Part shown: piece by piece, positions 7,936 through 32,325 of the stretch
Layout of the letters: every line of letters starts with the position of its first letter
Numbering within the stretch: the stretch's first letter is position 1
Assembly: GCA_947467625.1 (NCBI GenBank)
Contig: CANIJN010000031.1
Span: 1 to 33,116 of the forward strand
Source: Opitutia bacterium
Lineage (GTDB): Bacteria; Verrucomicrobiota; Verrucomicrobiia; Opitutales; Opitutaceae
DNA length: 33,116 nucleotides
Direction of reading: 5' to 3'
Program-made: the position numbers and the translations under genes
The notes under the pieces: model-generated
What the model was told of the DNA's origin: nothing
Databases searched by the model: none
The model's input: only the letters and a program-made list of their open reading frames with translations

Positions 7936-8985
7936 ATGAAGTCCCCGTTCGATTGCGCCCTGCTGAGCCTGTTGTTCGCGTTGCCCTGCTTCGCGCAAAC
8001 GTCCACCGCGCCTGCGCCCGTGCCCGCTCCCAGTGCGGCGGCACCCGCGCGGGCGGCTCGGCCGGCGGTGAATCCGCAGATGGATGCGTTCTATAAACTC
8101 GGGCCGGATTCGCTGCCGATGGACGGGGTGCCGAAGGGGACGTTTTCCGCGGCCAAGGTCATTCCCTCGCAGGTGTTTCCGGGCACCCAACACACCTACT
8201 ATGTTTATGTACCCGCCCAATATAATCCGGCGCAGGCGGCGGCGGTGATGATTTTCAACGATGGGCAAGCGATGATGGCCGAGCCCGGCAGCGTGCAGGC
8301 GCAGCACGTCTTGGACAATCTGATCTATCGGCGGGAAATTCCGGTGATGCTCGGGGTATTCATCAATCCGGGACGACGGCCGGACCAACCTGAGCCCACC
8401 CCGCGGGATTGGGGCGATCGCACGACGAACCGCGGGGCAGAATACAATCCTCCCAACGACCACTATGCGCGAGTCATCGTGGAGGAGCTGATGCCGGCGG
8501 TGAAAAAAGAATTCAACGTGAGCGCCGATCCGGAGTTGCACGGCATTATGGGGGCGAGTTCGGGTGGCATTGCGGCGTTTAGCACGGCGTGGTTTCGTCC
8601 GAATGATTTCCGCAAGGTCATCACGTTCGTCGGGAGCTTCACCAACATCCGTGGCGGCCACGTTTTTCCTGAACTGGTGGCGGCGAGTGAGAAAAAACCG
8701 CTCCGGATTTTCCTGCAGGACGGGCGCAACGACAACCGCCGGCCCGGAAATTTAGAGAACGATTGGTTTTACCAAAACGTCCGCCTGATGCAGGCGCTCA
8801 CGGCGAAAGGCTACGAGGTGAATTACGCGTGGGGTATCGGCAATCACGGACAGAAACAAGGCGGCGCGATTTTCCCCGAGATGATGCGGTGGTTGTGGCG
8901 CGACCAGCCAGTGTCGACCGATCCGAACGACGCGATCGAGCGGGCTTTTCGTGGCCCGGTTGCTCCGGTCACGCAGGCTCCGTAG
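7936..8985 (+). CDS. Secreted esterase of the enterochelin-esterase/esterase D type (alpha/beta hydrolase)
   Basis: The start is ATG 7936, which gives a signal peptide [20 protein letters not shown] followed by a Pro/Ala-rich linker up to about residue 45. The mature domain matches the putative esterase family (PF00756, Fes/EsD-like). Features are [13 protein letters not shown], then IFNDGQAMM, then [13 protein letters not shown], and the nucleophile elbow GASSGG at 206-211 (Ser208 by the GxSxG rule). The likely catalytic Asp is in DGRNDNR (262-268) and the likely catalytic His304 is in GNHGQ. The protein is 349 aa, normal for the family. It would hydrolyse an ester bond in the periplasm or outside the cell: a ferric-siderophore, feruloyl or acetyl ester are all possible. 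It is divergent from a TonB receptor and 70 bp upstream of a haem-binding protein on the same strand. Confidence 0.88.
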
Positions 8986-11980: not shown

Positions 11981-12607
11981 TTACTTTTTCTCGCCCTGTA
12001 TCTGGAGATTCCGAAATTTGCCGAGATCATCGAAGGAGCCGAGGCCGATCCAACCGTGGTTCAGCGTTTTGTTCTGCGCCGTGATGACCGGCTTTTCCAT
12101 GTCGTCGAAGAAGACGGTGATCATCCCCGTCGCGGTGTCATGGACGAGCTTGAGGCGGTGCCAACGGCCGGGCTGCCAAGGTGTGCCCTCAGTGCGGGTG
12201 GCTGTGATCGGCTTACGGTCAGCGTGGTCGACGAGGTGGAGGTGGTGGTGAACGCCGTCGGCTTTTTCACCCAGGTGGGCATAGTAGAATCGGGTGTCGT
12301 CTGAGCGTGCGAAGGCGAGGCACAAATCGTTATTGCCTGCATCGAATTTCGTGAGCTGACCCTCGACCGTAAGGGTGAACGATGTCCATTCCGTGGTCTT
12401 GAACCACGCGAGGTTGAAGGGACTGCGCACCTTCGGCTGATAGGTTTGCTGTCGTTTCAGAGTGAGTACGGACTGGCCGTCTTCTTTGCTCCAAGTCCAT
12501 GCGGCGGGATCGGCAAATGTCCAAGCGTCCGGCGTATCGAGGGGCCGTGCGGGTTCGGCGGCGAACAGAAGATGGGCGGAGAAAAAGAAGCAGAGCAGGG
12601 ATTTCAT
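11981..12607 (-). CDS. Secreted concanavalin-like (DUF1080/3-keto-disaccharide hydrolase-like) protein
   Basis: The start is ATG 12607, giving signal peptide MKSLLCFFFSAHLLFA before AEPARPLDTPDAWTF; 208 aa in total. The frame is open upstream to 13309, but that part is antisense to another gene and has no signal or domain character. The mature protein is a beta-sandwich. It contains WQPGRWHRLKLVHDTATGMI, then TVFFDDMEKPVITA and GWIGLGSFDDLGKFRNLQIQ, a pattern typical of DUF1080/LamG-like domains that bind or hydrolyse carbohydrate. A His-rich strand VHHHLHLVDH is notable. The protein is about the size of one such domain. Whether it is catalytic cannot be told. It lies 236 bp after the membrane protein gene on the same strand. 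Confidence 0.8.
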   Translation of the reverse strand: MKSLLCFFFSAHLLFAAEPARPLDTPDAWTFADPAAWTWSKEDGQSVLTLKRQQTYQPKVRSPFNLAWFKTTEWTSFTLTVEGQLTKFDAGNNDLCLAFARSDDTRFYYAHLGEKADGVHHHLHLVDHADRKPITATRTEGTPWQPGRWHRLKLVHDTATGMITVFFDDMEKPVITAQNKTLNHGWIGLGSFDDLGKFRNLQIQGEKK

Positions 12608-12843
12608 GAGAAGGCGGATAAGGCGGAAAGAGGGGAGTGACTCGCTCCGCGGGGGGCAACGGTCGTTTTTTGAGGTGGAGCGGAATTCGGTTTTCTGGGT
12701 GCCGCGCGCGAAGGGCGTATCAAAGCCCGGATGCGACGATCCGATCGGCATCGTGACAGTTTGCACGAGCCGACGGCGCGGAACTCGGCCGATCCATGGG
12801 GGCTCAGTTGAGATCAAGAAATCGCAACTGGCCAGGAGGGCGG

Positions 12844-17800: not shown

Positions 17801-19330
17801 TCAGGGGAAGATCTTTTGCGCACCGGCGACGGCGGGGCGGACGGTGCCGTCGGCGGCGATGAGGGGCTGGGGATGGGTGACCCGGCCGAGGGGGCGGACG
17901 CCGGGGCCGATCCCATCGCGGCCGAGGTCGGCGTGCGAGGCGTCGGCAATGGCGGTGAGACGGGCGACGACGGTGGGGTTTTGTGCGGCGACGTTGGTGG
18001 CTTCGCCGATATCGTTCGCGAGGTGGTAGAGTTCGCCGGTCGCCCGGTGGAGTTTCCACGGACCGTGGCGCACCGCTTCGAGGAGCAGTCCACGGTGATA
18101 GAGAAACGTATCGCGCGGTGGCATGGCGGGGGCCCCGGTGAGCACCGAGAAAATATCCACGCCATCAATTTTTCGATTGGCCGCCAGCGGAGCGCGAGCG
18201 AGCGCGGCGAACGTCGGAAGCACGTCGATCATGGCGGTGATGGCATCGGTCGAGGAGCCGGCGGGAATCTTTCCGGGCCACCACGCGAGACCCGGGACGC
18301 GGATACCGCCCTCGAGCGTGGAGCCCTTGGCGCCGCGGAGAGGGAAATTGTTCGCGCCCTGGCCGACTGGGCCGCCGTTGTCGGAGAAGAAGAGAACGAG
18401 CGTGGTGCGATCGAGCTTCATCGCGCGGAGGGCGTCGAGGATCTGACCGACGCTCCAGTCCACCTCTTGCACCCAGTCCCCAAGGAGGCCGTTGGGTGAT
18501 TGGCCGCGGAAGTCTTCGGTGGGATAGCGTGGAAAGTGGACGGCATTGTGCGCGAGATAGACGAAGAACGGGCGGTCTTTCGCCTGGGCGTCGCGGATGA
18601 AGGTGATCGTTTTCTCTGTGTAACGGCGGACGAGTGGGACCTGGTCCTCGGCGCGGATCCGGCCGATCACGGTGTCGTTTTCGATCAAGGCGAGCGGGGG
18701 CTGGACGTTGCTGCGGATGCCGAGGCCATCGTCCTCGGTGGCGGGGGTTGTTTTCTTCTTCGGCGCGGGGTTCTTCGCGTTTGCAGCCTTCGTGGATTGG
18801 GCGGCGTTGGGCTGTTTACCGAAATCGTTTTTTGTCCCGTCGGCGGCGGGGCCCATATCGTTGGAGTAGGGTAGGCCGAAGTAGTAATCGAAGCCCTGGC
18901 GGCGAGGGAGGAACTCGGGTTGATCGCCGAGATGCCATTTGCCGATGGCGGCAGTTGCGTAACCGGAGGAACGGAGGACGTCCGCGATGGTGTGTTCGTC
19001 GGGGTGGAGGCCCACGGCGGCGTTGGGAAAAAGGACGTGAGGGATGGGGAGCGCGCGCTTCGGGTAGGAGCCGGTCATGAGCGCGGCGCGCGAAGGGGAG
19101 CAGACGGGCGCTGCATAGTGGCTGGTGAGCTTGCGACCCTCGGCGGCCATGCGGTCGAGGTGGGGCGTGCGGTTGTTGGAACCGAATGGGCCGATGTCAC
19201 GGTAGCCGAGATCGTCGATGTTGATCAGGACGAAATTGGGGCGCGGCGTATCGGCGGCAGATGCGGCAGCTCCAACGAACGGCAGGAAAACCGTGGCGAG
19301 CAGGACGAAGGCGAGAGGAGATTTTCTCAT
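17801..19330 (-). CDS. Secreted sulfatase, formylglycine type (sulfatase 1)
   Basis: The start is ATG 19330, giving signal peptide MRKSPLAFVLLATVFLPFVG with cleavage after ASAA; 509 aa. The open frame upstream to 19627 lacks coding character. The S1 sulfatase fold is clear. FVLINIDDLGYRDIGPFG carries metal ligands Asp39-Asp40. The maturation motif CSPSRAALMTGSYPKR has Cys77 as the residue converted to formylglycine. FFSDNGGPVGQGANNFPLRG and GSTLEGGIRVPGLAWWPGKI also match the family. A Lys/Ala/Pro-rich insert (roughly residues 175-205) is low-complexity. It should remove sulfate esters from a glycan in the periplasm. A formylglycine-generating enzyme is needed but is not in this window. It sits 196 bp after sulfatase 2, the widest gap between the two sulfatases and their neighbours. 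Confidence 0.93.
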   Translation of the reverse strand: MRKSPLAFVLLATVFLPFVGAAASAADTPRPNFVLINIDDLGYRDIGPFGSNNRTPHLDRMAAEGRKLTSHYAAPVCSPSRAALMTGSYPKRALPIPHVLFPNAAVGLHPDEHTIADVLRSSGYATAAIGKWHLGDQPEFLPRRQGFDYYFGLPYSNDMGPAADGTKNDFGKQPNAAQSTKAANAKNPAPKKKTTPATEDDGLGIRSNVQPPLALIENDTVIGRIRAEDQVPLVRRYTEKTITFIRDAQAKDRPFFVYLAHNAVHFPRYPTEDFRGQSPNGLLGDWVQEVDWSVGQILDALRAMKLDRTTLVLFFSDNGGPVGQGANNFPLRGAKGSTLEGGIRVPGLAWWPGKIPAGSSTDAITAMIDVLPTFAALARAPLAANRKIDGVDIFSVLTGAPAMPPRDTFLYHRGLLLEAVRHGPWKLHRATGELYHLANDIGEATNVAAQNPTVVARLTAIADASHADLGRDGIGPGVRPLGRVTHPQPLIAADGTVRPAVAGAQKIFP

Positions 19331-19526
19331 GGAGGGGAAATGAACGACAAGAGGGACGGAACGGCTAAACTGCGCTGATTTTTCGGAGGCGGTAAGCGGA
19401 GCGAGGGTGGGCGTGATTCGTCTAAGCGGCGAGGCGTGGGGAGCGGGAGCGGTGGCGCGTAAACGGTGGATTCTTGATGAGCGGAGATGGGCGACGATTA
19501 GCGGTTCACCGGCTGGAGAACGTGGG

Positions 19527-21014
19527 TCAGAGTTTCTTTTTCCCGTTTTTCCCGGCCTTACCAGCTTTCGTGCCGGTGGTATCGCGGTCGAGCAAATCGG
19601 GAAGTGGGAGGTAGTCGAAATCGACAATCATTTTCTCCGCGAGGGCGGTGCGGAGTTCGAGCTCGATCGCGTGCACGGCGGTTTGGCCGCTGAGATTGTT
19701 GAGTTCGGAGGGATCGGCAGCGAGGTCGTAGAGTTCGTAGACAGGTCGCGGGGTGGTGAAGTAGGTGGTGCGGAGGCCGGCGGCGAGTTTACCCTGCTCG
19801 TTGGCGGCGGTCATCTGCGTCCAACCGGCGCCGCCCGCGGAGTCGACGGGTGAGTAGGGCACCCACGGCGTGCAGTTGTAGATGAATTTGTAGCGGTCGC
19901 TCCGGGCGCTGCGCGAAAAATCATTCGCGGAGCTGCGCATCTGGAGCGTGACGGGCGCGGTGCCGTGTGGTCCGCGCTCGACGAAGATGTATTTGCGCGG
20001 GGAGTACGATGAATCGCCGCGCAACAGCGCGGCGAAACTCCGGCCGCTCATCTTCGGTCCGGGCGCGAGGCCGGCGGCGGCAAGGATGGTCGGCGCGATG
20101 TCCTCGCCGCTCAGGAGTGTGTGCGAATCGCCGCCGGATTTCACGATGCCGGGCCAGCGGATAACGAGCGGGACATTGGAGCCGGGATCGTAGAGGGAGC
20201 CTTTGCCGTGGGGGAGCGCGGCGCCGTTATCGCCGGCGAAGATGACGAGCGTGTTGGCCGCGAAGCCTCGCTCGGCAAGCAGATCGAGGACGGCCTTCAT
20301 GCTGCGATCGACACGGTTTACCTCGCCGCAGTAGTCGGCGAGCTGCGCGCGCATCCCGGGCAGATCCGGCCAGTGCGCGGGGAGTTTGAGCTTCGTGGGA
20401 TCGGGACGGTCCTCGGCGGAGGGAGTCCACGCGTGGTGGGGATCGCTGAAATTCAGCCAGAGGCAGAAAGGTTTATCGGCGGGTTTTTGCCCGAGGAACT
20501 CGCGCATCTGTTCGATAGCAGCGGCGTCGGAACCGGTGCGCAAATAATCGACGCGTTGTTCAAACGTTCTCAGGCCGTGCTCGGTGAGGAGGCGGGCGGT
20601 GGTCTGGCCGTTGGCGGGGTTCGAGCCGTCGAGGTGATAGGATCGGCCGCACACGCCGGTGAAATAACCCGCCTGCGCGCGGAGGATTTCGGGAAACGTG
20701 ATTTCGTCGCTGGGGAGAGGCGAGGAGAAGCGAGTCATGCGCGCGGCGACGGCGGAGCGGCCTGTGAGGTAACCGGCGCGGGAGGGCACGCACTGGGGTG
20801 CGACCGTAAACAGGCGGTGGAACTTCATGCCCTCGGCGGCCAGTTTATCGAGGGTGGGCGTGCGGACGTTGGGGTCGCCGTAGCAGCTCAGGAATGGGTA
20901 GCTATGGTCGTCGGAGAGGACGAAGAGGATATTGGGCTTCGCAGGCGTGGCCGCGCTGAGGAGGCCAGCGGTGAACGTGAGAACCAGGGCAAGGATGGGG
21001 ACGTGGAGGATCAT
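19527..21014 (-). CDS. Secreted sulfatase, formylglycine type (sulfatase 2)
   Basis: The start is ATG 21014 (MILHVPILALVLTFTAGLLS, cleavage near AATPA); 495 aa. An in-frame start at 21062 would put a Pro-rich segment before the signal and is rejected. NILFVLSDDHSYPFLSCYGD has metal ligands Asp35-Asp36. CVPSRAGYLTGR has Cys75 as the formylglycine site. NFSDPHHAWTP, then LVIFAGDNGAALPHGKGSLY and SNVPLVIRWPGIVKSGG are further family motifs. This is the heparan-sulfate-sulfamidase-like subgroup in appearance, and differs from sulfatase 1 in nearly all loops, so the two likely act on different sulfate positions. The C-terminus is a basic tail (GKAGKNGKKKL). It lies 94 bp after the FAD oxidoreductase. 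Confidence 0.93.
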   Translation of the reverse strand: MILHVPILALVLTFTAGLLSAATPAKPNILFVLSDDHSYPFLSCYGDPNVRTPTLDKLAAEGMKFHRLFTVAPQCVPSRAGYLTGRSAVAARMTRFSSPLPSDEITFPEILRAQAGYFTGVCGRSYHLDGSNPANGQTTARLLTEHGLRTFEQRVDYLRTGSDAAAIEQMREFLGQKPADKPFCLWLNFSDPHHAWTPSAEDRPDPTKLKLPAHWPDLPGMRAQLADYCGEVNRVDRSMKAVLDLLAERGFAANTLVIFAGDNGAALPHGKGSLYDPGSNVPLVIRWPGIVKSGGDSHTLLSGEDIAPTILAAAGLAPGPKMSGRSFAALLRGDSSYSPRKYIFVERGPHGTAPVTLQMRSSANDFSRSARSDRYKFIYNCTPWVPYSPVDSAGGAGWTQMTAANEQGKLAAGLRTTYFTTPRPVYELYDLAADPSELNNLSGQTAVHAIELELRTALAEKMIVDFDYLPLPDLLDRDTTGTKAGKAGKNGKKKL

Positions 21015-21108
21015 GGCGCGGGGAGGTGGGGGAATTGATGGCCCCGAAGGCTCTCGGCGCAAACCCTCTCTAAGATTACGGATGCCCTCCGAGTGGTCTC
21101 CACCCGCC

Positions 21109-23388
21109 TCAGTAGGCAGAGAGGCGGAAGAGTGCGGCGGGGGCGCCGCTGGCGGGTCGGGTAAGCTGGACGGTGAGGCGACGCGTGCGTATGGGCGCGG
21201 CGAGCGTGAACGCGGCTTGGCTGAGGTGTTGGTCGCGGATCTCGCTGACCACGCGGCCGGTGTCGTCGAGGACGCGGAGCGCGGGGACGCAAAAGGGCGC
21301 GACAGTTTCTGGGTTCAACATCAGCACGGTTTCGAGCGGGTGGTCAAAGTCGGCGTCGAAGTCGAATTCGAGTCGCGAAATCTCGACCGGCTCGGGCCAC
21401 TCGAGCGTGAGCGTGGGCGTGGCGTCGCTGAGGGCGGCGAGCCAGACGTTAGGCTGGTTGGTAGGGCGGCTGAAACCGTTGCGGAGGTTCTCTGGAGGGA
21501 AGAGCGCGATCGGAGGCTCGACGCGGAGCGCGAAGTTTTTGCCGCCGGGGCGACGCTGAGGTATCCAGAATTCAAAGCTCTCGATACCGGTGCCGGGCGG
21601 TGGCTCTTGGCGCGGGGACTTGGCGACGGCGCGATTGAACTTTTGGGTGACAGCGAGCACGCCGGTGAGGCGTTGGTCGCTGAGATGCGCGGTGAGCGCG
21701 GGGTTGGCGGCGAGGCAGACGAAGGCGTAGCGCGGGGCGTCGATGGTAGCGGGGAATTTCAAGGTGACGGCCTGCGCCGGACCGGCGGCGAGTAGGACTT
21801 GGAGCGTGGCGAGGGTGACGTCGGGCGTGTGGTTATTGAGTTTTGAACTCACGCGGAGTTCGGCGACGAGTTCGGTGGCGGTCGCGACGTCGAGGGTAAA
21901 CGTGACGGCGGGCATCGGGCCGGGTGCAACGGGGAGGAGCATGGCCCAGGCGTCGGTGAGCGGGAGGCGGTCGAGACCGGCGGGGAGTTCGCGCAGCTGA
22001 TACGTGGACGACGCGGTGAGTGTGGCGTGCGAGACGAGGTCGGCGGTGTCGTGGAGCGGGACGCCGGGAATAAACTGGCCGGCGCGGATGAGGCGGCGTT
22101 GCAGTTCGGCCATGAGCGGGGGTGCGAGGAGGTCGCGCGGGGTGAGTTTGTCGCGCAAGCATAGGGCAGCGGCGAGACCGACGGCTTGGCCGCTGTGGGC
22201 GCAAGTGGCCATGACGCGGGTGGAGCCGAAGGCGATGTGCGTCGCGCTGGTGATGCGGCCGGCGAGGAAGAGGTTGGTAAGGTTGCGCGAGTAGAGGCTG
22301 CGGTAGGGAATCGGAAAAACGCCCTTGGCGTGCCATTGCTGACAGCCGGGTTTCGGACTGTAGACGCCCGCGGGGGGATGAAGATCGATGGACCAGCCGC
22401 CGAACGATACGGCGTCGGGTTGCGGGCGTTGCTCGATGAGGTCGCGCTGGGAAACCATGAAATCTCCCTCGAAGCGGCGGCTCTCGCGTTTGCCGGGGAT
22501 GGTGCCGACCCATTCGAGGGTGAGGTTGGCGGCTTCGGGAAATTTGCCGGAGTTCTTGATGTAGTGCCACACGCCGTACGCGACTTTCCAGAGTTCCCAC
22601 TTGATTTCCTCGGTGTCGTGCACGGTGTCGCGGAGACCGCCGTATTCGATCCACCAGAGGCGGCAGCCGAACTCGGCGGCGTTGAAATCGCGGAAGCGCG
22701 GGACCGACGTGATGTCGTGGAGCGCGTAACTCGGCGGCGTGAATTTCACCGGGCGGCCCGTGTCTTTTGAATAGAAATAAATCGAGTGACCGAGCAGTTC
22801 GGAGTTGGCGACGGCGGGCGCGAAGGCCTCGTCGAACTCGGCGGCGGCCTCGGCGCCGATCCGGAACGCGGCCCCGGCGAGGAAGCCGACGATTCCGTCG
22901 CCAGAGGCGTCGACGAAGAGCGGCGCGGCGAGTGCGTAGGCGGTGGAGTTCTGGGAATTGAAGGCGCGGACGGCGCGGATGGTGTCGGGGCCGGATTTTT
23001 CGAGATCGTGGACGGCGGTGTTGAGGAGGAGCGTGAGGGTTTTCTCGGCGATGGTTTTTTCGAGGAGAATGGTGTCCCAGATGAGCGGGTTGCCCTCGGG
23101 GTTGCGGTATTGGTTTTCGAGGAGGAACTCGTCGATGACGCCGCCCTCGCGAGCCCAGCGGTTGTTGTTACCGAGATGAGAAGTGGCGCCGAGGACCCAG
23201 AGGCGAACCTCGCTGGAGGCGTTGCCGCCGAGGACGGGACGGTCCTGCACGAGAATGACCTTGAGGCCGGCGCGAGCGGCGGTGATAGCGCAGCACGTGC
23301 CGGCGAGACCGCCGCCGACGACGACGAGATCGGCGGTGAGATGCTTTTGGGTGAGCGCGCGGGAGTCGACAGGAGGGTGGAGGAGCAT
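21109..23388 (-). CDS. FAD-dependent oxidoreductase with C-terminal beta-sandwich region
   Basis: The start is ATG 23388; 759 aa, no signal peptide. The Rossmann motif is ADLVVVGGGLAGTCCAITAA, with GGGLAG at 25-30. GGNASSEVRLWVLGA and LFVDASGDGIVGFLAGA are hallmarks of the FAD_oxidored family (PF12831). Around residues 360-420 come FPIPYRSLYSRNLTNLFLAG and the ARITSATHIAFGSTRVMATC-like stretch (RITSATHIAFGSTRVMATCA), which close the flavin site. From about residue 480 the sequence changes to beta-rich segments. These include one that looks like a discoidin/F5-8 type sandwich (TLTLEWPEPVEISRLEFDFD). Members are often labelled 'xanthan lyase' in databases without evidence. I infer oxidation of a sugar or sugar acid in the cytoplasm after import. 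It lies 57 bp after the MFS gene. Confidence 0.9.
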   Translation of the reverse strand: MLLHPPVDSRALTQKHLTADLVVVGGGLAGTCCAITAARAGLKVILVQDRPVLGGNASSEVRLWVLGATSHLGNNNRWAREGGVIDEFLLENQYRNPEGNPLIWDTILLEKTIAEKTLTLLLNTAVHDLEKSGPDTIRAVRAFNSQNSTAYALAAPLFVDASGDGIVGFLAGAAFRIGAEAAAEFDEAFAPAVANSELLGHSIYFYSKDTGRPVKFTPPSYALHDITSVPRFRDFNAAEFGCRLWWIEYGGLRDTVHDTEEIKWELWKVAYGVWHYIKNSGKFPEAANLTLEWVGTIPGKRESRRFEGDFMVSQRDLIEQRPQPDAVSFGGWSIDLHPPAGVYSPKPGCQQWHAKGVFPIPYRSLYSRNLTNLFLAGRITSATHIAFGSTRVMATCAHSGQAVGLAAALCLRDKLTPRDLLAPPLMAELQRRLIRAGQFIPGVPLHDTADLVSHATLTASSTYQLRELPAGLDRLPLTDAWAMLLPVAPGPMPAVTFTLDVATATELVAELRVSSKLNNHTPDVTLATLQVLLAAGPAQAVTLKFPATIDAPRYAFVCLAANPALTAHLSDQRLTGVLAVTQKFNRAVAKSPRQEPPPGTGIESFEFWIPQRRPGGKNFALRVEPPIALFPPENLRNGFSRPTNQPNVWLAALSDATPTLTLEWPEPVEISRLEFDFDADFDHPLETVLMLNPETVAPFCVPALRVLDDTGRVVSEIRDQHLSQAAFTLAAPIRTRRLTVQLTRPASGAPAALFRLSAY

Positions 23389-23445: not shown

Positions 23446-24747
23446 CTAGATCGCTTTTGCGCGCGGGCGGAGTTGCCACGCGAGACACCACGCGAGCGGA
23501 TGCAGGAGGAGCATGAAGCCGAAGGCGGGATCGTAGGAGGTGTTGGTCACGAGGGAGCCGACGGCTTTGTTCATCATGAGGCCGCCGAGAGAGCTGCCGG
23601 CGGCGATGACGCCGAACGCAAACGCGAGCGAGCCGCGGGGAACGAGATCGACGACGAGGGCGCTGAGGTTGATGAGCCACGCGAGATGCGCGAGCACGGC
23701 GACCATACCGAAAGCGAGGACGAGCCACAAGGCGTCGACGTGCGGGATCGCGGCGCCGAGCGGGACGAGAGCGGCGCAGCCGAGCATGATCCACAGGCGG
23801 CTGCGGACCGGGGTGGTGCCGCGCGCGATGAGCAGGCCGGAGAGCCAGCCGCCGGCGAGGACGCCGACATCGGCGGCGAGGTAAACGACCCACGTGACGC
23901 TGAGGGATTTCTGGTCGAGACCGCGCGCGTCATAGAGATATTTGGCGAACCAGAACTGGAAAAAATACCAGACGGGGTCGGTCAACATGCGGGCGAAGAT
24001 GAGGAGCACGACCTCGCGGCGGAGGAGGACTTGATGCCACTTACCCCAGTTGGCAGCCGGGGCGGGGATTGCGGCCGAGGGCGTGGTAGCGGCTGCTTCG
24101 GCGGCCTGACCGGATTCGATCACGGTGCGTTCCTCGGCGGAGAGGCGGGGGTGTTCGCTCGGGCGGCGATAAAGCCAGAGCCAAGGGATCAGCCAGAGGA
24201 GGCCGGCCGAGCCGGTGACGATGAAGGCGGCTTGCCAACTGTGCCACGAGGCGAGGCCGACGATGAGGATGGGCGCGAGGGTCGCACCGACCGTGGCACC
24301 GAGCGTGTAGACGCCGATGGCGAGGCCGCGTTCGCGGGCGGGGAACCATTCGGAGACGGCTTTGGGTGCGGCGGTCCAGTTGCCCGCTTCGCCGAGACCG
24401 AGGAAAAACCGACACGCGGCGAGGGAACCGAACGAGCGCGCGAAGCCCGTAAGAATGTTGGCGAGGGACCACCAGCCGACGAAGAGGGCGAGACCGAAGC
24501 GGACGCCGAAGCGATCCACGATTTTCCCGGAGAGGATCAGGGCGAAGGTGTAGGCGATCAGAAACCAGTTGAGGACGGAGGCGTAGTCCTCGTTGGAGAG
24601 CGCGAGGTCCTTTTGGATGGTCGGCGCGAGGATCGAGAGCGCCTGACGGTCGACGTAGTTGAGGACCGAGGCGCAGAAGATCAGCGAGACGATCCACCAG
24701 CGGAGATACGGGATGCGAGGCATGAAAGCTGAGGTTGGAAGAGACAT
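23446..24747 (-). CDS. MFS transporter, ACS family (hexuronate transporter ExuT-like)
   Basis: The start is ATG 24747 (a second in-frame ATG at 24723 is possible); 433 aa with twelve predicted membrane helices. The first helix ends with the family motif LNYVDRQALSILAP. LSGKIVDRFGVRFG is the MFS loop 2-3 signature, and RFFLGLGEAGNWTAAPKAVS is typical of anion:cation symporters that carry glucuronate, galacturonate or other sugar acids. A cytoplasmic loop of about 50 residues between helices 6 and 7 is Ala/Pro-rich. It would bring the depolymerised sugar acid into the cytoplasm with protons. It is placed between the large secreted protein and the FAD oxidoreductase in one strand run. Confidence 0.92.
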   Translation of the reverse strand: MSLPTSAFMPRIPYLRWWIVSLIFCASVLNYVDRQALSILAPTIQKDLALSNEDYASVLNWFLIAYTFALILSGKIVDRFGVRFGLALFVGWWSLANILTGFARSFGSLAACRFFLGLGEAGNWTAAPKAVSEWFPARERGLAIGVYTLGATVGATLAPILIVGLASWHSWQAAFIVTGSAGLLWLIPWLWLYRRPSEHPRLSAEERTVIESGQAAEAAATTPSAAIPAPAANWGKWHQVLLRREVVLLIFARMLTDPVWYFFQFWFAKYLYDARGLDQKSLSVTWVVYLAADVGVLAGGWLSGLLIARGTTPVRSRLWIMLGCAALVPLGAAIPHVDALWLVLAFGMVAVLAHLAWLINLSALVVDLVPRGSLAFAFGVIAAGSSLGGLMMNKAVGSLVTNTSYDPAFGFMLLLHPLAWCLAWQLRPRAKAI

Positions 24748-24875: not shown

Positions 24876-27728
24876 TCATTTCGCGGGGGGGAATCCTGTG
24901 CGGAGGTCGGGCAGCGGGCGCTCAGTGACGGCGCCAGCGAGGTCTTCGACGAGGAGACGGGCTTTGAGCGGCGCGGCTGAGTCAGAGAATGGGACGCTGA
25001 ATTCGTAAGGATAACGGGTGTCGACGATCTCGGCTTCGGGCGCGTCGCCGAGGCGGTAGCGGAGCGTGGCTTTGCGGACCTGTTTCTCGGTGCGGTCGGT
25101 GTAGATGAATGCATCGGTGCGCGCGCCGAAGCGGAGGATGATCCCGGTGACGGTGCCGGCGGCATCGGTGTCGGGCTGGCGGAAATAATCGGGGGCGTTG
25201 CCGGCGGTGCGGCCGGCGACCGTGGTCGTGGCGGGGAGCACGGGCAGGGCGACGAGGTTTTTTAAGCCGTGGATTTTTATCGATAGGAGACTACCGGCGG
25301 GAATGCGCACGCGGAGCTGGCCGTCGCGGAGTTCGCCGGATTCGCTTGGGCCGTCGGGGCGCTGGAACGTCAGCGGGTAAACGTGGCCGGCGTCGAGGCG
25401 GAGCACATCGGCGTCGAGCGTGAGATCAGCGGTGATTTCTGCGGGGCGGGTGTTGCTCAAGATCAGGTAGGTGGCATCGGAGGCGGCGCCAAAGACGTGG
25501 TTGAGCGCGACCGCGGAGGAGCGCAGGGCGCGGCGGGGGAGCCAAAGGCGCACACCGGTGTCGCCGAAGACTGCGCCGGCGCGGTGTCCGTAAACCTTGC
25601 TGGTGAGGAACGCGTAGCCGGGCGCGTAGGCCGAGGGAAAATTCACGCGTCCCCGAGACTTGGCGAAAGCTTCGCTGACGAGGAAATCCTGCAACATCGC
25701 GATGTGAGGCCAGACGTGGTTGTAGAAAATGGCGTTGTATTTGACGTCGTAAAACGAGTGCAAGGGATAGTCGGGTTGCTGGTAGACGGTCGTATCGAGC
25801 GAGGTGAAATAGTAGCCGGGGAAATTGGCGTAGCGGCCGATCACGGCGTTGTAGGCGGCCTCGGCGAGCAACGGGTCCCCGGCGAGTTGGGAGAGGCGGA
25901 GGAGCCATGGCGCGTGATGGGCGAGCATGACGGGACCCCAGCGGTAGGTGCTCGGCTGCTCAGGGAGCGTGCCGACGAGCGAGGTGCGCCACGCATCGAC
26001 GCGTTGCTCGGGGATCGCGGTGGACGTGTCGTAAGGTTTGAAGCCGTCTTCCTTCCCGTGGCGGCGGCCGGGGAAGACGCCGGGGACGCGTCCGCCGGGG
26101 TTGGTGGTGATGAGCGTGGCCGGGGCCATCGGGTTGGAGCGTTGCCAGAGGAGGAGCTGGCGGGCGGCGGTGAGCGCGGCATCGAGGTAGCGCTGCTCGC
26201 CGGTTGCCTCGAAAAGTTCGGTGAGATCGTAGAACGGCGGGGTGAAGTCGGTAGCGAATCGGGCGCCGCGCACCCCGGGGTTGGTGAGAAAGTCGGTCGG
26301 ATAGTTTTTGACGGTGTCTGCGATGAGTCGGTCGGCGCCGGCTTGGGACGCGCGTAGATCAGCGGGGTCGCGGCTCAGGCGATAGCGGGCGAGGTGATCC
26401 GGCCAGGAGGCGCCGCCGGTTTCGGTATCGAGGTTGAGTTTGCGGGGCTGGCCGAAGAGTCGCGCGAGCTCGCGGGCGTAGACGGAGTCGCGGCCGCCGG
26501 TGAGTTCGTGGAGGGTGGCGAGTTCGCCGAGCTCGACGGCGGGACCGCGGAGGAAATGCGACGGGTTCTGAAACGTTATCGTCTCGTCGTCGGCATATAG
26601 GTATTTTTCGCGCGAGAGCAGATACTCGAGCATGGGCAGGCCGCGGCGGCGGTAGAGCTCGGGAGCGCCGGTCGTGAGTGCGACGCTGAGGACGTGGGAG
26701 GCGGCCACGTTTTTCACGGCGCTCGGCACGTCGAAGCGGTAATCGGAGCCCTTCAACTCGGCGACCCAACCGCTGTAGACGTCGTCCGTCGCATAGTCGA
26801 CGATGCGCTCGAAGGTATCGTTGAGGGAGCACGTGGCGTTTTGCCGTTCGTTGCGGTAGCCGGCGACAGCGCGGTAGAAATGGTTGAGCCCTGCATACCA
26901 GTCGCCCGGCTGAAGTAGGTAGCGCACGGTGAACGTGCGCGTGTCGCCGACGGCGAGTTTCGATTCGGCGCCGCCGAGGAGGGGCGCGAACACGACCGGG
27001 CGCGCCTGCCCGGTGGGATCGCGCAGGCCGAGGCCGAAGCGGGAATTGGCGAAGGTGGCGAAGCGGTAGGGAATCTCGGCGACGTCGGGCGCCAGGCCCT
27101 CGGTGGCGTTGGCGGCGTGCGTAAACACGGCCGCGGTGGGGGCGAAATTTTCCGGCGTGAGCACGGCGGCGATGGGGAAACGTTTCCACGACCAGACGAG
27201 CGGCTGGTAGAGGAAATCGAGCGACGCGGGCGGGCGCGCGGCGAGCCCGGTGAAGCCGACGGAGAACCAACCAGCCTGCCCGGCGGTGAGCCGCCACGCG
27301 AAGGCAGGGGGGGCCGTGCCCTCGTCGAGCCGGACGGAGAGCGTCACGCGGCCTGCGGACGCGGCAGGGAACTCCAGTTCGACGGCGCGGGCGCCGGCGG
27401 GCGCGGCGCTGGTGGCACGCAGCGAGGCGGGTGCGCCGACGGTCCAAAAATCGCCGACGGCGGATTTGGCGCCGGCGGCTTTCCAGCCGACCACGCGCGT
27501 GCCGGCTTCCGAGCCGACATCGGTGTAGCCCGGATCGGTGGCGGTGAACAGGAGCGTGAGCTCGGGGCGGATTTCGCGGGCGAGACCGGGAGCGTCGAGG
27601 CGCGTGACGACGATGGCTGCAGGCGCCACCTCAATGCGGTAGAGTTGATTTTGGAGGGCGACGGGCTGGGCAAGCGTCGTGGTGGCAAGCGAGAGACCGA
27701 GAATGAGAGCGGTGCGGGTGATGCGCAT
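24876..27728 (-). CDS. Large secreted protein of unknown family, probable alpha/alpha-toroid carbohydrate-active enzyme
   Basis: The start is ATG 27728, giving signal peptide MRITRTALILGLSLATTTLA before QPVALQN; 950 aa. The frame is open upstream to 27863 but that segment is intergenic and overlaps a terminator. Residues 21-290 are beta-rich. Residues about 300-690 have the periodic helices and aromatic patches of alpha/alpha-toroid glycosidases and lyases: NDTFERIVDYATDDVYSGWV, then TPPFYDLTELFEATGEQRYL, then RWGPVMLAHHAPWLLRLSQL. FPGYYFTSLDTTVYQQPDYP is at 636-655 and NAIFYNHVWPHIAMLQDFLV at 665-684. His604-605, Tyr639-640, Tyr669, His671 and His675 are candidate active-site residues. The rest is beta-rich to the end. 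I cannot assign a known polysaccharide lyase or glycoside hydrolase family. Context (receptor, sulfatases, uronate-type transporter) suggests it cleaves the sulfated glycan. Confidence 0.85.
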   Translation of the reverse strand: MRITRTALILGLSLATTTLAQPVALQNQLYRIEVAPAAIVVTRLDAPGLAREIRPELTLLFTATDPGYTDVGSEAGTRVVGWKAAGAKSAVGDFWTVGAPASLRATSAAPAGARAVELEFPAASAGRVTLSVRLDEGTAPPAFAWRLTAGQAGWFSVGFTGLAARPPASLDFLYQPLVWSWKRFPIAAVLTPENFAPTAAVFTHAANATEGLAPDVAEIPYRFATFANSRFGLGLRDPTGQARPVVFAPLLGGAESKLAVGDTRTFTVRYLLQPGDWYAGLNHFYRAVAGYRNERQNATCSLNDTFERIVDYATDDVYSGWVAELKGSDYRFDVPSAVKNVAASHVLSVALTTGAPELYRRRGLPMLEYLLSREKYLYADDETITFQNPSHFLRGPAVELGELATLHELTGGRDSVYARELARLFGQPRKLNLDTETGGASWPDHLARYRLSRDPADLRASQAGADRLIADTVKNYPTDFLTNPGVRGARFATDFTPPFYDLTELFEATGEQRYLDAALTAARQLLLWQRSNPMAPATLITTNPGGRVPGVFPGRRHGKEDGFKPYDTSTAIPEQRVDAWRTSLVGTLPEQPSTYRWGPVMLAHHAPWLLRLSQLAGDPLLAEAAYNAVIGRYANFPGYYFTSLDTTVYQQPDYPLHSFYDVKYNAIFYNHVWPHIAMLQDFLVSEAFAKSRGRVNFPSAYAPGYAFLTSKVYGHRAGAVFGDTGVRLWLPRRALRSSAVALNHVFGAASDATYLILSNTRPAEITADLTLDADVLRLDAGHVYPLTFQRPDGPSESGELRDGQLRVRIPAGSLLSIKIHGLKNLVALPVLPATTTVAGRTAGNAPDYFRQPDTDAAGTVTGIILRFGARTDAFIYTDRTEKQVRKATLRYRLGDAPEAEIVDTRYPYEFSVPFSDSAAPLKARLLVEDLAGAVTERPLPDLRTGFPPAK

Positions 27729-27887: not shown

Positions 27888-30800
27888 TTAGAACTCGAAC
27901 GTGTTGGTCAGCCTGAAGGTCAGGCCATTTTGCACTTGTCGGGCCACGACGACGAGATCGTCGTCGATCGCGACGGGAATTTCCTTGGTGTCGTTCAGGA
28001 GATTGTAGACGTTCAATTGAACTTTCCACCGAAGCTTGTCCCTTAAGATTTTGCGCGAGTAGTTCACGAAGGCATCCGTGGTGAGATCCGTCGGTCCGTA
28101 GATGGGGCGTTTAATGTCCTGAACGGTTATGCCAAACTCATTGATTTTTGAATGATATCCCACGGCTGCCTTGTCCTGCCAGCGGACCGCGCCGCCGACC
28201 GACCAGCCTTTTAAGCGCCCTTCGGTGAAGCGGTAGCTGTTTACGAGGTTGAAGCGCCATTTGCGGATTTCAGGCAGAATGGATCCCTCCTTACTTTGCT
28301 GGGTGCGAATCACCAGAACCGCACCGGTGTCCACCGATTGGTTGATAGTTTGTCCGGTGGGCCGAGCGATGAGGTTGCCCATCGCGCGCCACTGGGGTTC
28401 GCGGATCGCGAGGTAGTCGGAATACTGTTTGAGCACGTTGGTCTTGATGGATTCCTGAGACGAGGCGTTGAACGTGATCGACCAGCGGCTCGTCGGGTTA
28501 TAGGTCCCCTCGATTTCGTAGCCTTTGGAGAAGAAATCCGACGTGCCGGTTACGTTGGGATTGCCCGCGTCGGACACGCTGCTGGTGGTGTCGAGGTTGG
28601 GTTCGATCGGATTCCAGAACGCCTGGCGCATGCCGAGCGGCGGCAGGGTGTAGAGCTTGCGCCAGTTTTCGTTGGCCTCGCCTGGACCGGTAAAGATCGA
28701 GCGCACGTTGTTGTAGAACAGGCGCTCAAAGTTCGGAATCTGTGCCGCGCCGAGCGAACCATCAGATTGGTTTTTGGATTTCGTTTCATATTTGTTGACG
28801 CGCACGAGGAGTTTTCCCGCGAACAGTTCGAAGGCGAAGCCCAGTTCCTTGGTTTGGCCGCGGGGGTTTTCGATTGGGCGATTCAAGACGTCGACCCGGC
28901 CGGCAAGCGGCTGAAAGTTTTCGGAGATGCCGTAGTGAAGGCTGACGCCCACGCCCAATTTTTCCTGCCAGCGGCGTGGAAGATGGCCGACGGCACCCCA
29001 GGAAAAGGCGTTGCCAGAGACTTGGTCGTTGGGAGTGCTGGGAAGGCGCAGGCCGTCCAGAATGACGATGTCGTCGGGCGTCCGCGGCGGCTGGTTGTTG
29101 AACCATTTTTTGCTCTTGTCGCTGCGCCAACCTGCGGTGAGGACGAGATTCTTGTTGAGCAGATAGCTCTGGCTGACGAAGGCCAAAGAATCGACCGAGT
29201 CCTTGTTCAAATTTGCGCCGGCAATCGGATTGTCGATTACAGAGATGGTGCGGTTCTGCCACGCGCCCAATTCGCCGGGTAGATTGGGAGTCGCGGAGCG
29301 ATTCCACATGACCGCGGGAAAACTGGTCAGCTTGGCCGTGTTCGCTGGGACGGCGACGCTGCTGGCATTGGGGCCGTTGATGGCCCCGAGATAGCGGATG
29401 CCGATTATGCTGCGATCGAACGAAGTGGCGGGGAAACTGGCTGTGGGGCTGGTATTGAAGTCGATAATGGCCTTGTTGTCCAAGCCGATGGCATCGCCGT
29501 ATAGCGTGTTGGCGCGGCGGATTACCGCCTGCTGATTGCTCAGCATACTGGTAAACACGTGTCGGCCCAGCCAGCCGAGCGACTTCGATTCACGTTCTAA
29601 ATCCAGATCGTAGAATCCCGTGACCCGCCACGATGAGCGCTCTGTTCGGGTTTCTCCGAGGGCGGAGCGGTAGTTGATGAAAACGCGGCCGGCGTTCGGA
29701 TTCGGTACCAGGTCGTTCACCTTGGTCAACGGATTGTAGATCGTATAGGGCAAGAAACCACTGGTATCTACCTGCAGGTTATTTTGAGCCTGTTCGGTCG
29801 AACCGGATTTGTCGTGTTGCTTGTCGTAGGCAAACTCGAGGCCGGCTCGTTTGTTCAGAAAGCTCTGTTCAAGGGCCAAATTCACGGCGTCAAAATTCTT
29901 GTATTGGCGATTAAGTGATCCGGTGAGCGCGTGGTTCCGGTAATCGAAGATCCACCGCTCTGCATCGGACAGCACTGCGCCACGATGGAAAGCAGACGAG
30001 TTGACTTCGTTGTCGCGCGTAACCCAGGTGGTCTGGCTGACGGTCGTGGCCGATTGCGGGCTGCGCACGTCCAGTGAATAGCCTAGGAGCGGCGTCGCGT
30101 CATTGGGGCCGTTGATCACCCAAATAGGTGCGCGGTTGGCGTCGCGGCTTCCGAACCTGACTCCTGGGTTGAGACCGGGCGCCTGGATGGGTTTTCCAGC
30201 CGCGACCCAGCCTGCAACGTTGGACCGGGGCGCCATGGACGATGGATTGCTCGAACGGCGGGAACCGGCCTCGGCATTGGCGCGAAACACGGTGTTCGCA
30301 AACGGTTTCACGACCACGTTACCGTAGATGCGCTGCTCCGTCTTGAAGGGTTCCTCCTGCATGAACTCGTCGTCCTTTTTGAGGCCGATGATTCTGAAAG
30401 CCACTTTGGCGGGCAGCAGGACGCGGTTAAAGTCGACCACCTCACGGTGGGAGCCGAAACTACCTACAGTGAAGTCAACCGAGCTAGCGTCTTTGAACGT
30501 CGCAGGCTTCAGCGAGGCGTCCATAATACCTCCCGGACTGCCGAGACCAAAGAGCATACCGTTCGGCCCGCGGCTCACCGTGACACGATCCGTATTGTAG
30601 CTTTCAAAATCTATATCGCTCAGGAAATATCCGCGAGTGAGGTCCGCGCTGGAGAGGCCGCGAACGCGAACAGTTGGCGACGCGTTGCGCCGGACGCCGT
30701 CGTCGTTGGTGCCGCCGTTGTTGCCGGAAAAATTGCCGTCATTGCCGGCGACTTCGGTATTGGTCGTGTAGAGCAGAAGCCGGGTCGCATCGGTTGAGCC

Positions 30801-31094
30801 CGTGTCCTTCAGGAACTGCTCGGTCACGACTTGGATGGCGCCTGACAAGTCTTTGAGGGACGTTTTCAAGCGGGAGCCAGCGAGGGTGCTGGAAGCGCGA
30901 TAGCCTTTCTCTTCCTCGGCACTGATTATGAACGGGGAAAGCGAGATTGTCTCCTCGGGTGGTAGTGGGTCGAGTGGTTGGGCGCGGTTCGCCGTCGCTT
31001 GTGCGCACAGGGTAAGAGCGGTATGAAGCGCGCATAGCAGAACGAGTCCCGCGGAGAGCGCGGGAACGCGTGGGGCGGTTTTAGAGGTGTTCAT
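27888..31094 (-). CDS. TonB-dependent outer-membrane receptor (1068 aa), first gene of the large locus
   Basis: The start is ATG 31094; 1068 aa. The signal segment is APRVPALSAGLVLLCALHTA with cleavage near LCAQA. Residues 49-75 show the order-typical ISLSPFIISAEEEKGYRASS then TLAGSRLK. The plug follows (LSGAIQVVTEQFLKDTGSTD, then SPTVRVRGLSSADLTRGYFL, then RGPNGMLFGLGSPGGIMDAS at 175-194). The barrel occupies the remainder and ends in the C-terminal strand FRLTNTFEF with terminal Phe. It differs from the first receptor in nearly all loop regions, so a different ligand is likely. In this order there is usually no SusD partner, and none is seen here. Position at the head of sulfatase and transporter genes suggests import of sulfated oligosaccharides. 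A terminator follows and a LacI regulator is divergent. Confidence 0.93.
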   Translation of the reverse strand: MNTSKTAPRVPALSAGLVLLCALHTALTLCAQATANRAQPLDPLPPEETISLSPFIISAEEEKGYRASSTLAGSRLKTSLKDLSGAIQVVTEQFLKDTGSTDATRLLLYTTNTEVAGNDGNFSGNNGGTNDDGVRRNASPTVRVRGLSSADLTRGYFLSDIDFESYNTDRVTVSRGPNGMLFGLGSPGGIMDASLKPATFKDASSVDFTVGSFGSHREVVDFNRVLLPAKVAFRIIGLKKDDEFMQEEPFKTEQRIYGNVVVKPFANTVFRANAEAGSRRSSNPSSMAPRSNVAGWVAAGKPIQAPGLNPGVRFGSRDANRAPIWVINGPNDATPLLGYSLDVRSPQSATTVSQTTWVTRDNEVNSSAFHRGAVLSDAERWIFDYRNHALTGSLNRQYKNFDAVNLALEQSFLNKRAGLEFAYDKQHDKSGSTEQAQNNLQVDTSGFLPYTIYNPLTKVNDLVPNPNAGRVFINYRSALGETRTERSSWRVTGFYDLDLERESKSLGWLGRHVFTSMLSNQQAVIRRANTLYGDAIGLDNKAIIDFNTSPTASFPATSFDRSIIGIRYLGAINGPNASSVAVPANTAKLTSFPAVMWNRSATPNLPGELGAWQNRTISVIDNPIAGANLNKDSVDSLAFVSQSYLLNKNLVLTAGWRSDKSKKWFNNQPPRTPDDIVILDGLRLPSTPNDQVSGNAFSWGAVGHLPRRWQEKLGVGVSLHYGISENFQPLAGRVDVLNRPIENPRGQTKELGFAFELFAGKLLVRVNKYETKSKNQSDGSLGAAQIPNFERLFYNNVRSIFTGPGEANENWRKLYTLPPLGMRQAFWNPIEPNLDTTSSVSDAGNPNVTGTSDFFSKGYEIEGTYNPTSRWSITFNASSQESIKTNVLKQYSDYLAIREPQWRAMGNLIARPTGQTINQSVDTGAVLVIRTQQSKEGSILPEIRKWRFNLVNSYRFTEGRLKGWSVGGAVRWQDKAAVGYHSKINEFGITVQDIKRPIYGPTDLTTDAFVNYSRKILRDKLRWKVQLNVYNLLNDTKEIPVAIDDDLVVVARQVQNGLTFRLTNTFEF

Positions 31095-31281: not shown

Positions 31282-32325
31282 ATGGCGGTAAAAAACTCGG
31301 ACGCCCACGTCACAACGACTCAAATCGCGACCAAAGCGGGCGTCTCGCGCACGACCGTTTCGTTTGCTTTGCGCAATCATCCGAAGATTCCAGCGGCGAC
31401 GGCCGAGCGGGTGCGGGCGGTGGCGGACGAACTAGGCTACCGGCCTAATCCGCGCGTGGCCGCGATCATGGCGCACATCCGCCGGTCGCGCGCGGTACCC
31501 GCCGGTGAACGCCTGGCTTTTGTGTGGGTGCACACGCCGCGCACGGAGTCGGCGAAGGATCTGTTTCTCCAACGCGTTTTTCTCGGTGCCAAGGCGCGGG
31601 CCGAGGCGTTGGGCTATGGGTTGGAGCAATTCTGGACGGCGGAGCGTGGCCTGACCGAACGGCGTTTGTCGCACGTGATGAAGTCGCGGGGGATTGTCGG
31701 CCTCCTGCTTTCTCCAGTGATGCACGGGACGGATGTGACGCTCGATCTGGAGTGGTCGTCGTTTGCACCCGCAGTGATTGGCAGCACACAGTGGTATCCT
31801 GAACTCCACCACGCGGGGCACCATCACTACCTTGCGATGCGCATGGCGCTCGAGAAGCTCGCCGCCGCGGGTTACCGCCGACCGATGGCCATCATTGAGG
31901 CCGGGGTCAACGAGCGGGCCCGCCGGGCGTGGGAGGCGGCGTTTGCGGTGTTTCACCCGAGTCGCGCAGCGGCAGCAGAGTTGTTGTGGATTGGGCTGCC
32001 GAAGGATCGTCGTGCCGTCGCGCGACGGATCAAGGAGAGCCAGCCCGATGCGGTCGTCGTCAGCGACCACGGGATGATCGAACAGTTTCGTGGAATGAAC
32101 ATTGGTCAGTCTGCGAAACTGCCGATCTTCAATTTGCACTGGCTGCCGACTGCACCGGAGATTGGCGGAATCGATCAATCCTACGACATGGTGGCGGCGA
32201 ACGCGGTCGACCTCGTCGTGAGCCAGCTCAACGGCAATGAGACCGGCGTGCCGCCCTGGCCGCGCATGCTGCTGTTTCCCGGACGGTGGGTGGAGCCGGC
32301 GGTGGCGAGCGTGCGCTCGCGCTAG
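31282..32325 (+). CDS. LacI-family transcriptional regulator
   Basis: The start is ATG 31282; 347 aa. The N-terminal helix-turn-helix is VTTTQIATKAGVSRTTVSFA (10-29), followed by LRNHPKIPAATAERVRAVAD and the hinge-helix region ELGYRPNPRVAAIMAHIRRS. The LacI/GalR DNA-binding domain with the recognition helix SRTTVSFAL is unmistakable. Residues from about 70 on form the periplasmic-binding-protein-like effector domain. It includes YRRPMAIIEAGVNERARRAW and then PDAVVVSDHG (family consensus 'daifa.nD'). It is divergent from the receptor gene and presumably represses the large locus until a breakdown product binds. It may also control itself through the shared region. Length is normal. Confidence 0.93.
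   Translation: MAVKNSDAHVTTTQIATKAGVSRTTVSFALRNHPKIPAATAERVRAVADELGYRPNPRVAAIMAHIRRSRAVPAGERLAFVWVHTPRTESAKDLFLQRVFLGAKARAEALGYGLEQFWTAERGLTERRLSHVMKSRGIVGLLLSPVMHGTDVTLDLEWSSFAPAVIGSTQWYPELHHAGHHHYLAMRMALEKLAAAGYRRPMAIIEAGVNERARRAWEAAFAVFHPSRAAAAELLWIGLPKDRRAVARRIKESQPDAVVVSDHGMIEQFRGMNIGQSAKLPIFNLHWLPTAPEIGGIDQSYDMVAANAVDLVVSQLNGNETGVPPWPRMLLFPGRWVEPAVASVRSR

Follow-up and report, generated by a model that had tools for sequence, protein, structure and literature searches.

Many known modes of acidic-glycan cleavage are represented among toroid enzymes, and new toroid families still emerge from glycan-use loci of the kind described here. Polysaccharide lyases of the families PL8, PL33, PL40 and heparinase II/III combine an (alpha/alpha)6 toroid with a beta domain. 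As far as the available parts of the sources go, the toroid comes first and the beta domain second in PL33 (PMC11848413) and in PL40, for which a His base and a Tyr acid are reported (PMC12915356). An N-terminal beta-sandwich followed by an (alpha/alpha)6 barrel is described in the accessible text on the PL27 enzyme BACCELL_00875 (PMC8377490), an L-rhamnose-alpha-1,4-D-glucuronate lyase (5no8/5nok). Here, we analyze a stretch of 33,116 nucleotides (the window) from contig CANIJN010000031.1 of an Opitutia bacterium of the phylum Verrucomicrobiota. The focus is TOR, our label for a 950-residue protein encoded on the minus strand of the window (Table 1). TOR shares with the above lyases the combination of an (alpha/alpha)6 toroid with a beta domain, in the order seen in PL27 and the reverse of PL33 and PL40. 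Judged by its relatives, TOR is a member of a real and diverse family without a name in the libraries searched (Pfam and NCBIfam). The fold and the kind of enzyme are known already, and the novelty lies in the unnamed family. We tentatively suggest, at close to though short of an even chance, that TOR is an extracytoplasmic glycan-cleaving enzyme of a glycan-use locus, of an undescribed sandwich-plus-toroid family, and most likely a beta-eliminating His/Tyr lyase.

The TOR open reading frame starts with an ATG and comprises 950 codons and a stop. A TTG further upstream would lengthen the frame to position 27863, and the ATG directly precedes a signal-peptide-like stretch (MRITRTALILGLSLATTTLAQ) recognized by eye. 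TOR is probably secreted or otherwise extracytoplasmic. The frame is not a product of chance because homologues of similar or greater length are found in Bacteroidota/Bacteroidales and Verrucomicrobia contigs. A scan of genome contigs recovered eight relatives on contigs with these labels, sharing 32-46% identity with TOR. Relatives occur in 20 of 387 sampled genomes of the window's phylum, its own genome included (E up to 0.001), and in 4 of 395 sampled genomes of the phylum of Niabella drilacis, N. drilacis included (E up to 1e-10). A plasmid collection contained no match. The window's own genome encodes a second copy with 35% identity on another contig, with a GH106 rhamnosidase, a LacI gene and DUF1552/DUF1592-type genes resembling those of the window as neighbors. 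In a tree of 39 members, the window's TOR falls into a supported group of nine rows. Bacteroidota and Verrucomicrobia rows are intermixed in this group, hence the family has probably moved between phyla. The 39-row alignment omits L030 (a near-copy of L010; L labels denote our stretches), L037 (a gene already included as L041:3765), L027-L029 and L033-L035 (short or very weak), as well as some further copies detected by the scan.

The preliminary description of this DNA, made from the sequence alone, proposed a signal peptide, beta-rich flanks and a helical center with the architecture of an alpha/alpha toroid. The start read by eye agrees with the first, and structure prediction bears out the other two. 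A full-length AlphaFold2 model (30-row alignment) reached a mean predicted local distance difference test score (pLDDT) of 87.7 and a predicted template modelling score (pTM) of 0.90, and a separate model of the toroid alone (39 rows) reached 83.8 and 0.86, respectively. An N-terminal sandwich is followed by twelve helices between residues 302 and 690, forming an (alpha/alpha)6 toroid, and by two further beta domains. Folds were searched with VIA-align and Foldseek, and the toroid was also searched alone since single domains filled the list for the full model. For the toroid alone, VIA-align placed AGE-fold epimerases including cellobiose 2-epimerases in the lead (Z 17.6, root-mean-square deviation (rmsd) 4.3, 306 aligned), together with GH76 (Z 16.4, rmsd 4.2, 289 aligned), PL27 5no8 (Z 16.4, rmsd 4.0, 290 aligned) and GH88 (Z 15.9, rmsd 3.9, 275 aligned). 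For sandwich and toroid combined, the best Z among the matches listed belongs to PL27 BACCELL_00875 (5no8; Z 15.0, rmsd 8.0, 444 aligned). The domain order of PL27 is thus found both in the TOR model and in its alignment with 5no8. In contrast to PL27, TOR carries approximately 250 extra C-terminal residues in beta domains, and the two show no detectable sequence similarity. PL12, PL15, PL17, PL21, PL33, PL35, PL39 and GH105 were not recognized among the fold matches listed, which excludes none of them.

Sequence searches connect TOR to known toroid families only at the level of profiles. Searches of Pfam and NCBIfam at E up to 10 returned no family for TOR, and phmmer returned no PDB sequence at E <0.1. 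Twelve phmmer matches to carboxysome-shell and microcompartment chains (one a capsid fusion) at E 0.17-0.8, covering residues 50-174, were judged as chance. Profiles A1 and A2 of the TOR family reach the six-hairpin superfamily (GH76, GH88/YteR and GH127) over the central hairpins only. Profile A2 matched 4mu9 (a putative glycosyl hydrolase), GH76 and six-hairpin chains in the PDB at E 6e-7 to 3e-6. The PL27 structures 5no8/5nok were absent among the PDB matches of A1 (17 matches) and A2 (41 matches) at E up to 10, which reflects the sensitivity of HMMER rather than a direct comparison. With the barrel in the model and the similarity at profile level, TOR falls within the six-hairpin toroid superfamily yet outside every family tested. 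The earlier failure to place TOR in any lyase or hydrolase family thus holds for Pfam and NCBIfam, whereas profiles of the family do reach a known superfamily.

Individual families were considered and rejected as a home for TOR. The 30 family members compared with Pfam gave weak, scattered matches to eight families, GH127 being the commonest. TOR itself has no match to the GH127 domain PF07944 (E up to 10), nine of the 30 members match at E <=0.1 (best E 7.3e-5), and the bit scores of three members (16.8, 12.2 and 16.2) lie under the curated cut-off of 24.9. The TOR profile aligned with a GH127-like neighbor by hhalign at a probability of 91.8 over 89 columns. GH127 enzymes use a catalytic cysteine in a zinc site. 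TOR contains one Cys in 950 residues, and no Cys is found among the toroid positions conserved in at least 32 of 39 rows. For GH88/GH105, TOR has no PF07470 match, one of 30 members matches at E 0.0072, and hhalign against one GH88 neighbor gave a probability of 0.1. GH76 (PF03663) likewise has no match in TOR and one among 30 members (E 0.0017). The similarity to GH76, GH88 and GH127 is weak and repeatable in the central hairpins of the shared (alpha/alpha)6 toroid, whereas none was found in the conserved loops of TOR, which is sandwich-first. PL8 fails for want of Lyase_8 domains in TOR, with none listed for the 30 members, and hhalign against one PL8 sequence gave 0.2. The toroid profile aligned with one heparinase II/III sequence at a probability of 0.7. 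PL40 was set aside because its toroid is N-terminal and its beta-sheet domain C-terminal, whereas the large sandwich of TOR precedes the toroid.

TOR is probably a new family of a known kind of enzyme, as set against Pfam, NCBIfam and the PDB rather than CAZy or dbCAN profiles. Several recent CAZy families have no Pfam model. TOR could accordingly already belong to a CAZy family or an unclassified CAZy group lacking a Pfam or NCBIfam model, a reading that would overlap with both a lyase and a glycosidase. We consider this unlikely given that the 30 members matched nothing in NCBIfam at E up to 0.01, their Pfam matches are weak and scattered, and TOR has no whole-length relative in the PDB. Word searches of open-licence PubMed Central, which suit unnamed families poorly, returned no recognizable description of the TOR family or of its flavoenzyme partner described below.

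The most conserved residues of the family appear to gather at one end of the barrel. Long loops precede the helices at residues 344-353, 400-409, 442-452, 499-509, 605-616 and 669-690, and loops before most other helices are short. These six helices were taken as the inner ones because long loops precede them in the helix map. The N-terminal ends of inner helices usually form the active-site face of such barrels, and we took the long-loop end as this face. In the 39-row alignment, loops of this end carry R632 (39/39), H671 (39/39), W580 (38/39), E590 (37/39) and Y639 (37/39). Y330 (36/39) lies on the same presumed face, and R373 is kept in 34 of 39 rows with Gln in one distant five-member group. 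The Tyr and His cluster highlighted in the preliminary description (H604-H605, Y639-Y640 and Y669-N-H-V-W-P-H675) is confirmed for Y639 and H671, which the helix map places on one barrel face, but H604 and H605 fall outside the conserved set. No carboxylate other than E590 is near-invariant in the loops of the presumed active-site face. We favor a lyase over a classical glycosidase because a single near-invariant carboxylate at this face, together with His, Tyr and Arg, suits beta-elimination better.

In the proposed mechanism, TOR would cleave the glycan by beta-elimination at the mouth of the (alpha/alpha)6 barrel, with His671 and Tyr639 serving as base and acid on a chain containing uronic acid. 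Arg632, joined by Arg373 in most members, might hold a carboxylate or sulfate, Trp580 could stack on a sugar, and Glu590 might orient or tune Tyr639. The neighboring sulfatases would then remove sulfate from the freed acidic sugar, a D-galactonate-type importer would take it up, and the partner flavoenzyme would oxidize it inside the cell.

Two members depart from the conserved pattern. L032 and L036, sister rows in the tree, have lost E590 (Phe or Pro) and Y639 (Asp) together and kept R632 and H671. The joint loss suggests that the two residues work together, or alternatively may reflect one evolutionary event. The two paralogues are possibly pseudo-enzymes or have a changed activity. Such losses in 2 of 39 members would also fit a TOR that alters sugars without chain cleavage, as an epimerase or isomerase does, or that is a non-catalytic glycan-binding protein, and AGE-fold sugar 2-epimerases are the top toroid matches. 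We regard this as improbable. The Z lead of the epimerases over GH76, PL27 and other toroids is about 1, and they are chains of approximately 400 residues without extra domains, whereas TOR has several domains and begins with a signal-peptide-like stretch. Both E590 and Y639 are retained in 37 of 39 members.

The gene neighborhood places TOR among glycan-use functions. An importer of the major facilitator superfamily (MFS), a flavin adenine dinucleotide (FAD)-dependent oxidoreductase and two sulfatases lie downstream of TOR on the same strand, separated by 128 (MFS importer to TOR), 57 (oxidoreductase to importer) and 46 bases (sulfatase A to oxidoreductase). The two sulfatase frames as drawn overlap by 101 bases owing to early starts. 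We would expect none of these genes other than TOR to cleave a glycan chain. We compared 29 places with TOR genes by tblastn, namely the window, L001-L008 (L007 with L070/L071), L038-L053, L068/L069, L072/L073, L074 and L075. Short stretches were excluded (L013, L015, L023, L025, L027-L029, L032, L035 and extra copies). Flank sizes differ, and absences mean little at L003 (5.8 kb), L004 (8.1 kb) and L002 (13.1 kb in all). A full-length FAD partner with 52-92% identity is present at 12 places and in the window (13/29), leaving out a weaker PF12831 relative at L044. Genes similar to sulfatase A or B are found at L003, L004, L038, L045 and in the window (5/29). The earlier placement of TOR at the heart of a sulfatase locus is accurate for this window, whereas across the family the recurrent partner is the close FAD-dependent oxidoreductase. 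Sodium/solute symporters occur at 10 of the 29 places, and a relative of the MFS importer at one place besides the window. Glycan genes include GH29 (4 places), GH97 (3), GH106 (2), PL8 with GH88 (1) and GH43 (1). In the window's tree group, the FAD gene accompanies six of nine rows, the other three being L002-L004 on contigs of approximately 13 kb or less. GH29 fucosidases are found at four of these nine places, and at several, TOR has a GDSL-type esterase domain next to it or fused to it. At L006:9998-14629 and L008:9920-13426, one open frame runs from TOR through into a GDSL-type esterase domain, which hints at an acylated substrate.

Clues to the substrate conflict. The importer match to the D-galactonate transporter hints at a sugar acid, judged from sequence. 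PL8, GH88 and heparinase II/III families act on uronate-containing polymers or their products, and all three are encoded in a cluster of Chitinophaga barathri with two TOR genes. The importer and this cluster remain on the uronic-acid side despite the sulfatases. Of the two sulfatases, one has arylsulfatase A and the other S1_8A as its best solved match, and GlcNAc-6-sulfatase, mucin, carrageenan (in both lists) and other sulfatases rank lower. The nearest solved chain of sulfatase A is S1_8A (9bb9), the name of a galactose-2-sulfate sulfatase of lambda-carrageenan use in the available part of PMC12549532, from which, going by the name, 9bb9 probably originates. A sulfated uronic-acid polymer, proposed earlier as the substrate, finds no support in these matches. 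Sulfatases were also discarded as a key to the substrate, being near TOR at few places and mixed in their solved matches. A fucose-bearing, acetylated or sulfated acidic polysaccharide would fit most clues and is our guess.

Several observations weigh against a uronate lyase. The toroid Z scores of epimerases, GH76, PL27 and GH88 all lie within 2 of each other, and the fold does not choose the chemistry. Foldseek with the whole model ranks GH15 glucodextranase (E 4.8e-7), GH36 and GH94 over 5no8 (E 4.6e-5), with TM-scores that are low throughout. That the conserved residues cluster was read from the helix map and not from measured distances. Most TOR places have no recognized uronate enzyme (PL8/GH88 at 1 of 29 places versus GH29 at 4, GH97 at 3 and GH106 at 2), and a uronate polymer is not what the sulfatase matches indicate. 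D681 is invariant (39/39) and could in principle form a glycosidase pair with E590. TOR might thus be a glycoside hydrolase of a new six-hairpin-superfamily family, acting on a neutral or sulfated glycan containing galactose, fucose or rhamnose with E590 as the acid and an unrecognized base. This is a serious rival, credible though clearly short of an even chance. Foldseek ranks a GH15 enzyme first for the whole model, followed by GH94 chains, and both GH15 and GH94 carry a sandwich before the toroid. The central-hairpin profile matches, the weak GH127 matches of nine members, the hhalign result, the GH29, GH97, GH106 and GH43 neighbors and the galactose-2-sulfate sulfatase name attached to S1_8A (PMC12549532, as far as available) point the same way. 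A hydrolase fits less well with a single near-invariant carboxylate in the presumed active-site loops. D681 sits ten residues (approximately 15 Angstrom by helix geometry) deeper along the last inner helix, where its role is probably structural. The single Cys speaks against the zinc-cysteine mechanism of GH127, and the similarity covers structural hairpins and not the conserved loops.

The link between TOR and the FAD-dependent oxidoreductase extends beyond single loci. We defined close FAD partners by E below 1e-190, a cut-off set after a gap in the scores was seen, and scored two candidates per genome in the 387 genomes, with FAD counts referring to the matches listed. The close subfamily is found in 21 of the 387 genomes and TOR in 20, and nine genomes share both against 1.1 expected (hypergeometric P 7e-8). 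By genus, 7 are shared of 15 and 16 among 197 (P 2.5e-5). Both tests include the window's own genome and ignore deeper kinship. In six TOR-bearing genomes of the Niabella phylum, picked for TOR, all seven close FAD genes lie <=7 kb from TOR. On the tree, the label for an FAD neighbor changes five times versus a shuffled mean of 9.7, with 2 of 500 shuffles as low (L006 unlabelled). The link is weakened by 12 of the 21 close-FAD genomes lacking TOR, and by both genes sharing one contig in only four of the nine shared genomes (G000, G160, G189 and G134), some contigs in the others being short. G118 carries its FAD gene on a contig of 54 kb with no TOR nearby, and its TOR genes on the contigs examined (L044 and L048) have no close FAD gene. 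The distant five-member group with Gln at position 373 (L041:3765-6440, L068:9884-12424, L073:6290-8926, L074:8199-10718 and L075:8412-11072; branch length 3.0) has a close FAD gene on the same or an adjoining stretch.

FAD genes without TOR were recovered on 13 stretches of 12 genomes, and an importer like those near TOR lies beside or near FAD in 9 of the 13. Other neighbors include GH36 proteins (L123, with a homologue in L126), a GH31 protein (L128) and F5/8-domain proteins and relatives (L118, L119, L121 and L129). Among the latter, one has a match to a cellulase N-terminal domain that falls slightly under the cut-off. The subfamily, at approximately 50% identity or more, is often found beside an importer and varied glycan enzymes (the window and L113-L132). 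Because TOR-less FAD genes adjoin importers and varied glycan proteins, the FAD-importer pair resembles a module that serves several extracytoplasmic enzymes, among them TOR. No signal peptide was seen by eye in the FAD protein, whose substrate is therefore probably the product brought in by the importer. Solved structures match this protein over the FAD motif alone (residues 13-58).

TOR and this equally unstudied oxidizing enzyme may form an undescribed route for the use of complex sugars. A more specific proposal, somewhat unlikely in our view, is that TOR founds a new polysaccharide lyase family (sandwich-first, with a His671/Tyr639/Glu590/Arg632 site) within a two-compartment FAD-importer catabolic module re-used with other enzymes. 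If so, the toroid would free a sugar outside and the flavoenzyme would oxidize it inside by an undescribed route, with a sugar-acid or sodium/solute importer in between. The FAD-importer unit would be re-used with other extracytoplasmic glycan enzymes such as the GH36 and GH31 proteins in genomes without TOR. TOR is a compact, testable case, with a family conserved across two phyla, a confident model and five near-invariant candidate residues, and the linked uncharacterized flavoenzyme could reveal the identity of the released sugar. Confirmation would bring a further enzyme family to light, and possibly an oxidative arm of glycan catabolism, in bacteria with sulfatase-rich loci of often unknown substrates.

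Table 1. Features of TOR and neighboring genes, with positions in the window.
Feature	Position	Strand	Basis
TOR, toroid protein of an unnamed family, 950 residues	24876..27728	-	Open reading frame, family searches, relatives, AlphaFold2 model
Signal-peptide-like N-terminus, approximately residues 1-20	27669..27728	-	By eye; helix 2-15, low pLDDT in model
N-terminal beta-sandwich, residues 23-275	26904..27662	-	DSSP of model; aligned with galactose-mutarotase-type and GH38/GH129-type beta domains
(alpha/alpha)6 toroid region, residues 290-700	25629..26861	-	Twelve helices in full model and toroid-only model; fold searches
Beta domain following toroid, residues 697-820	25269..25640	-	DSSP of model
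C-terminal beta domain, residues 846-940	24909..25193	-	DSSP of model
W580 to E590, loop preceding inner helix 10	25959..25991	-	39-row alignment
R632 to Y639, loop preceding inner helix 12	25812..25835	-	39-row alignment
H671, first turn of inner helix 12	25716..25718	-	Model and 39-row alignment
MFS importer; best solved match D-galactonate transporter 6e9n (E 5e-38)	23446..24747	-	Sequence matches
FAD-dependent oxidoreductase, PF12831, 759 residues, recurrent TOR partner	21109..23388	-	Pfam and neighborhood counts
Sulfatase A; true start probably ATG at 21014; motif CVPSRAGYLTG	19527..21062	-	Family and PDB matches
Sulfatase B; true start probably later ATG (MRKSPL...); motif CSPSRAALMTG	17801..19627	-	Family and PDB matches
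TonB-dependent receptor, upstream of TOR	27888..31094	-	Family matches
LacI-family regulator, divergent	31282..32325	+	Family matches

Some further features accompany TOR genes or lie elsewhere in the window. Between about 337 and 440 kb of a C. barathri contig (L068-L071), five TOR-family genes are found in approximately 100 kb, three of them close together. The same region encodes two close FAD proteins, PL8, GH88 and heparinase II/III enzymes, a PhyH-type dioxygenase and SusC/SusD proteins. A protein of approximately 800 residues precedes TOR in the Bacteroidota loci L005:7520-9913, L006 and L008:7519-9900, with a fragment in L002. The L005 copy has no Pfam family, and the protein is possibly a further glycan protein. 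In the window, a 444-codon open reading frame at 3-1334, truncated by the window edge, gave neither a Pfam family (E <=0.01) nor an informative match in the PDB. The stretch at 11984-12700, away from the genes running with TOR, matches PF06439 (3-keto-disaccharide hydrolase) weakly, under the curated cut-off, and 3-keto-sugar chemistry was set aside. A putative esterase is encoded at 7738-8985.

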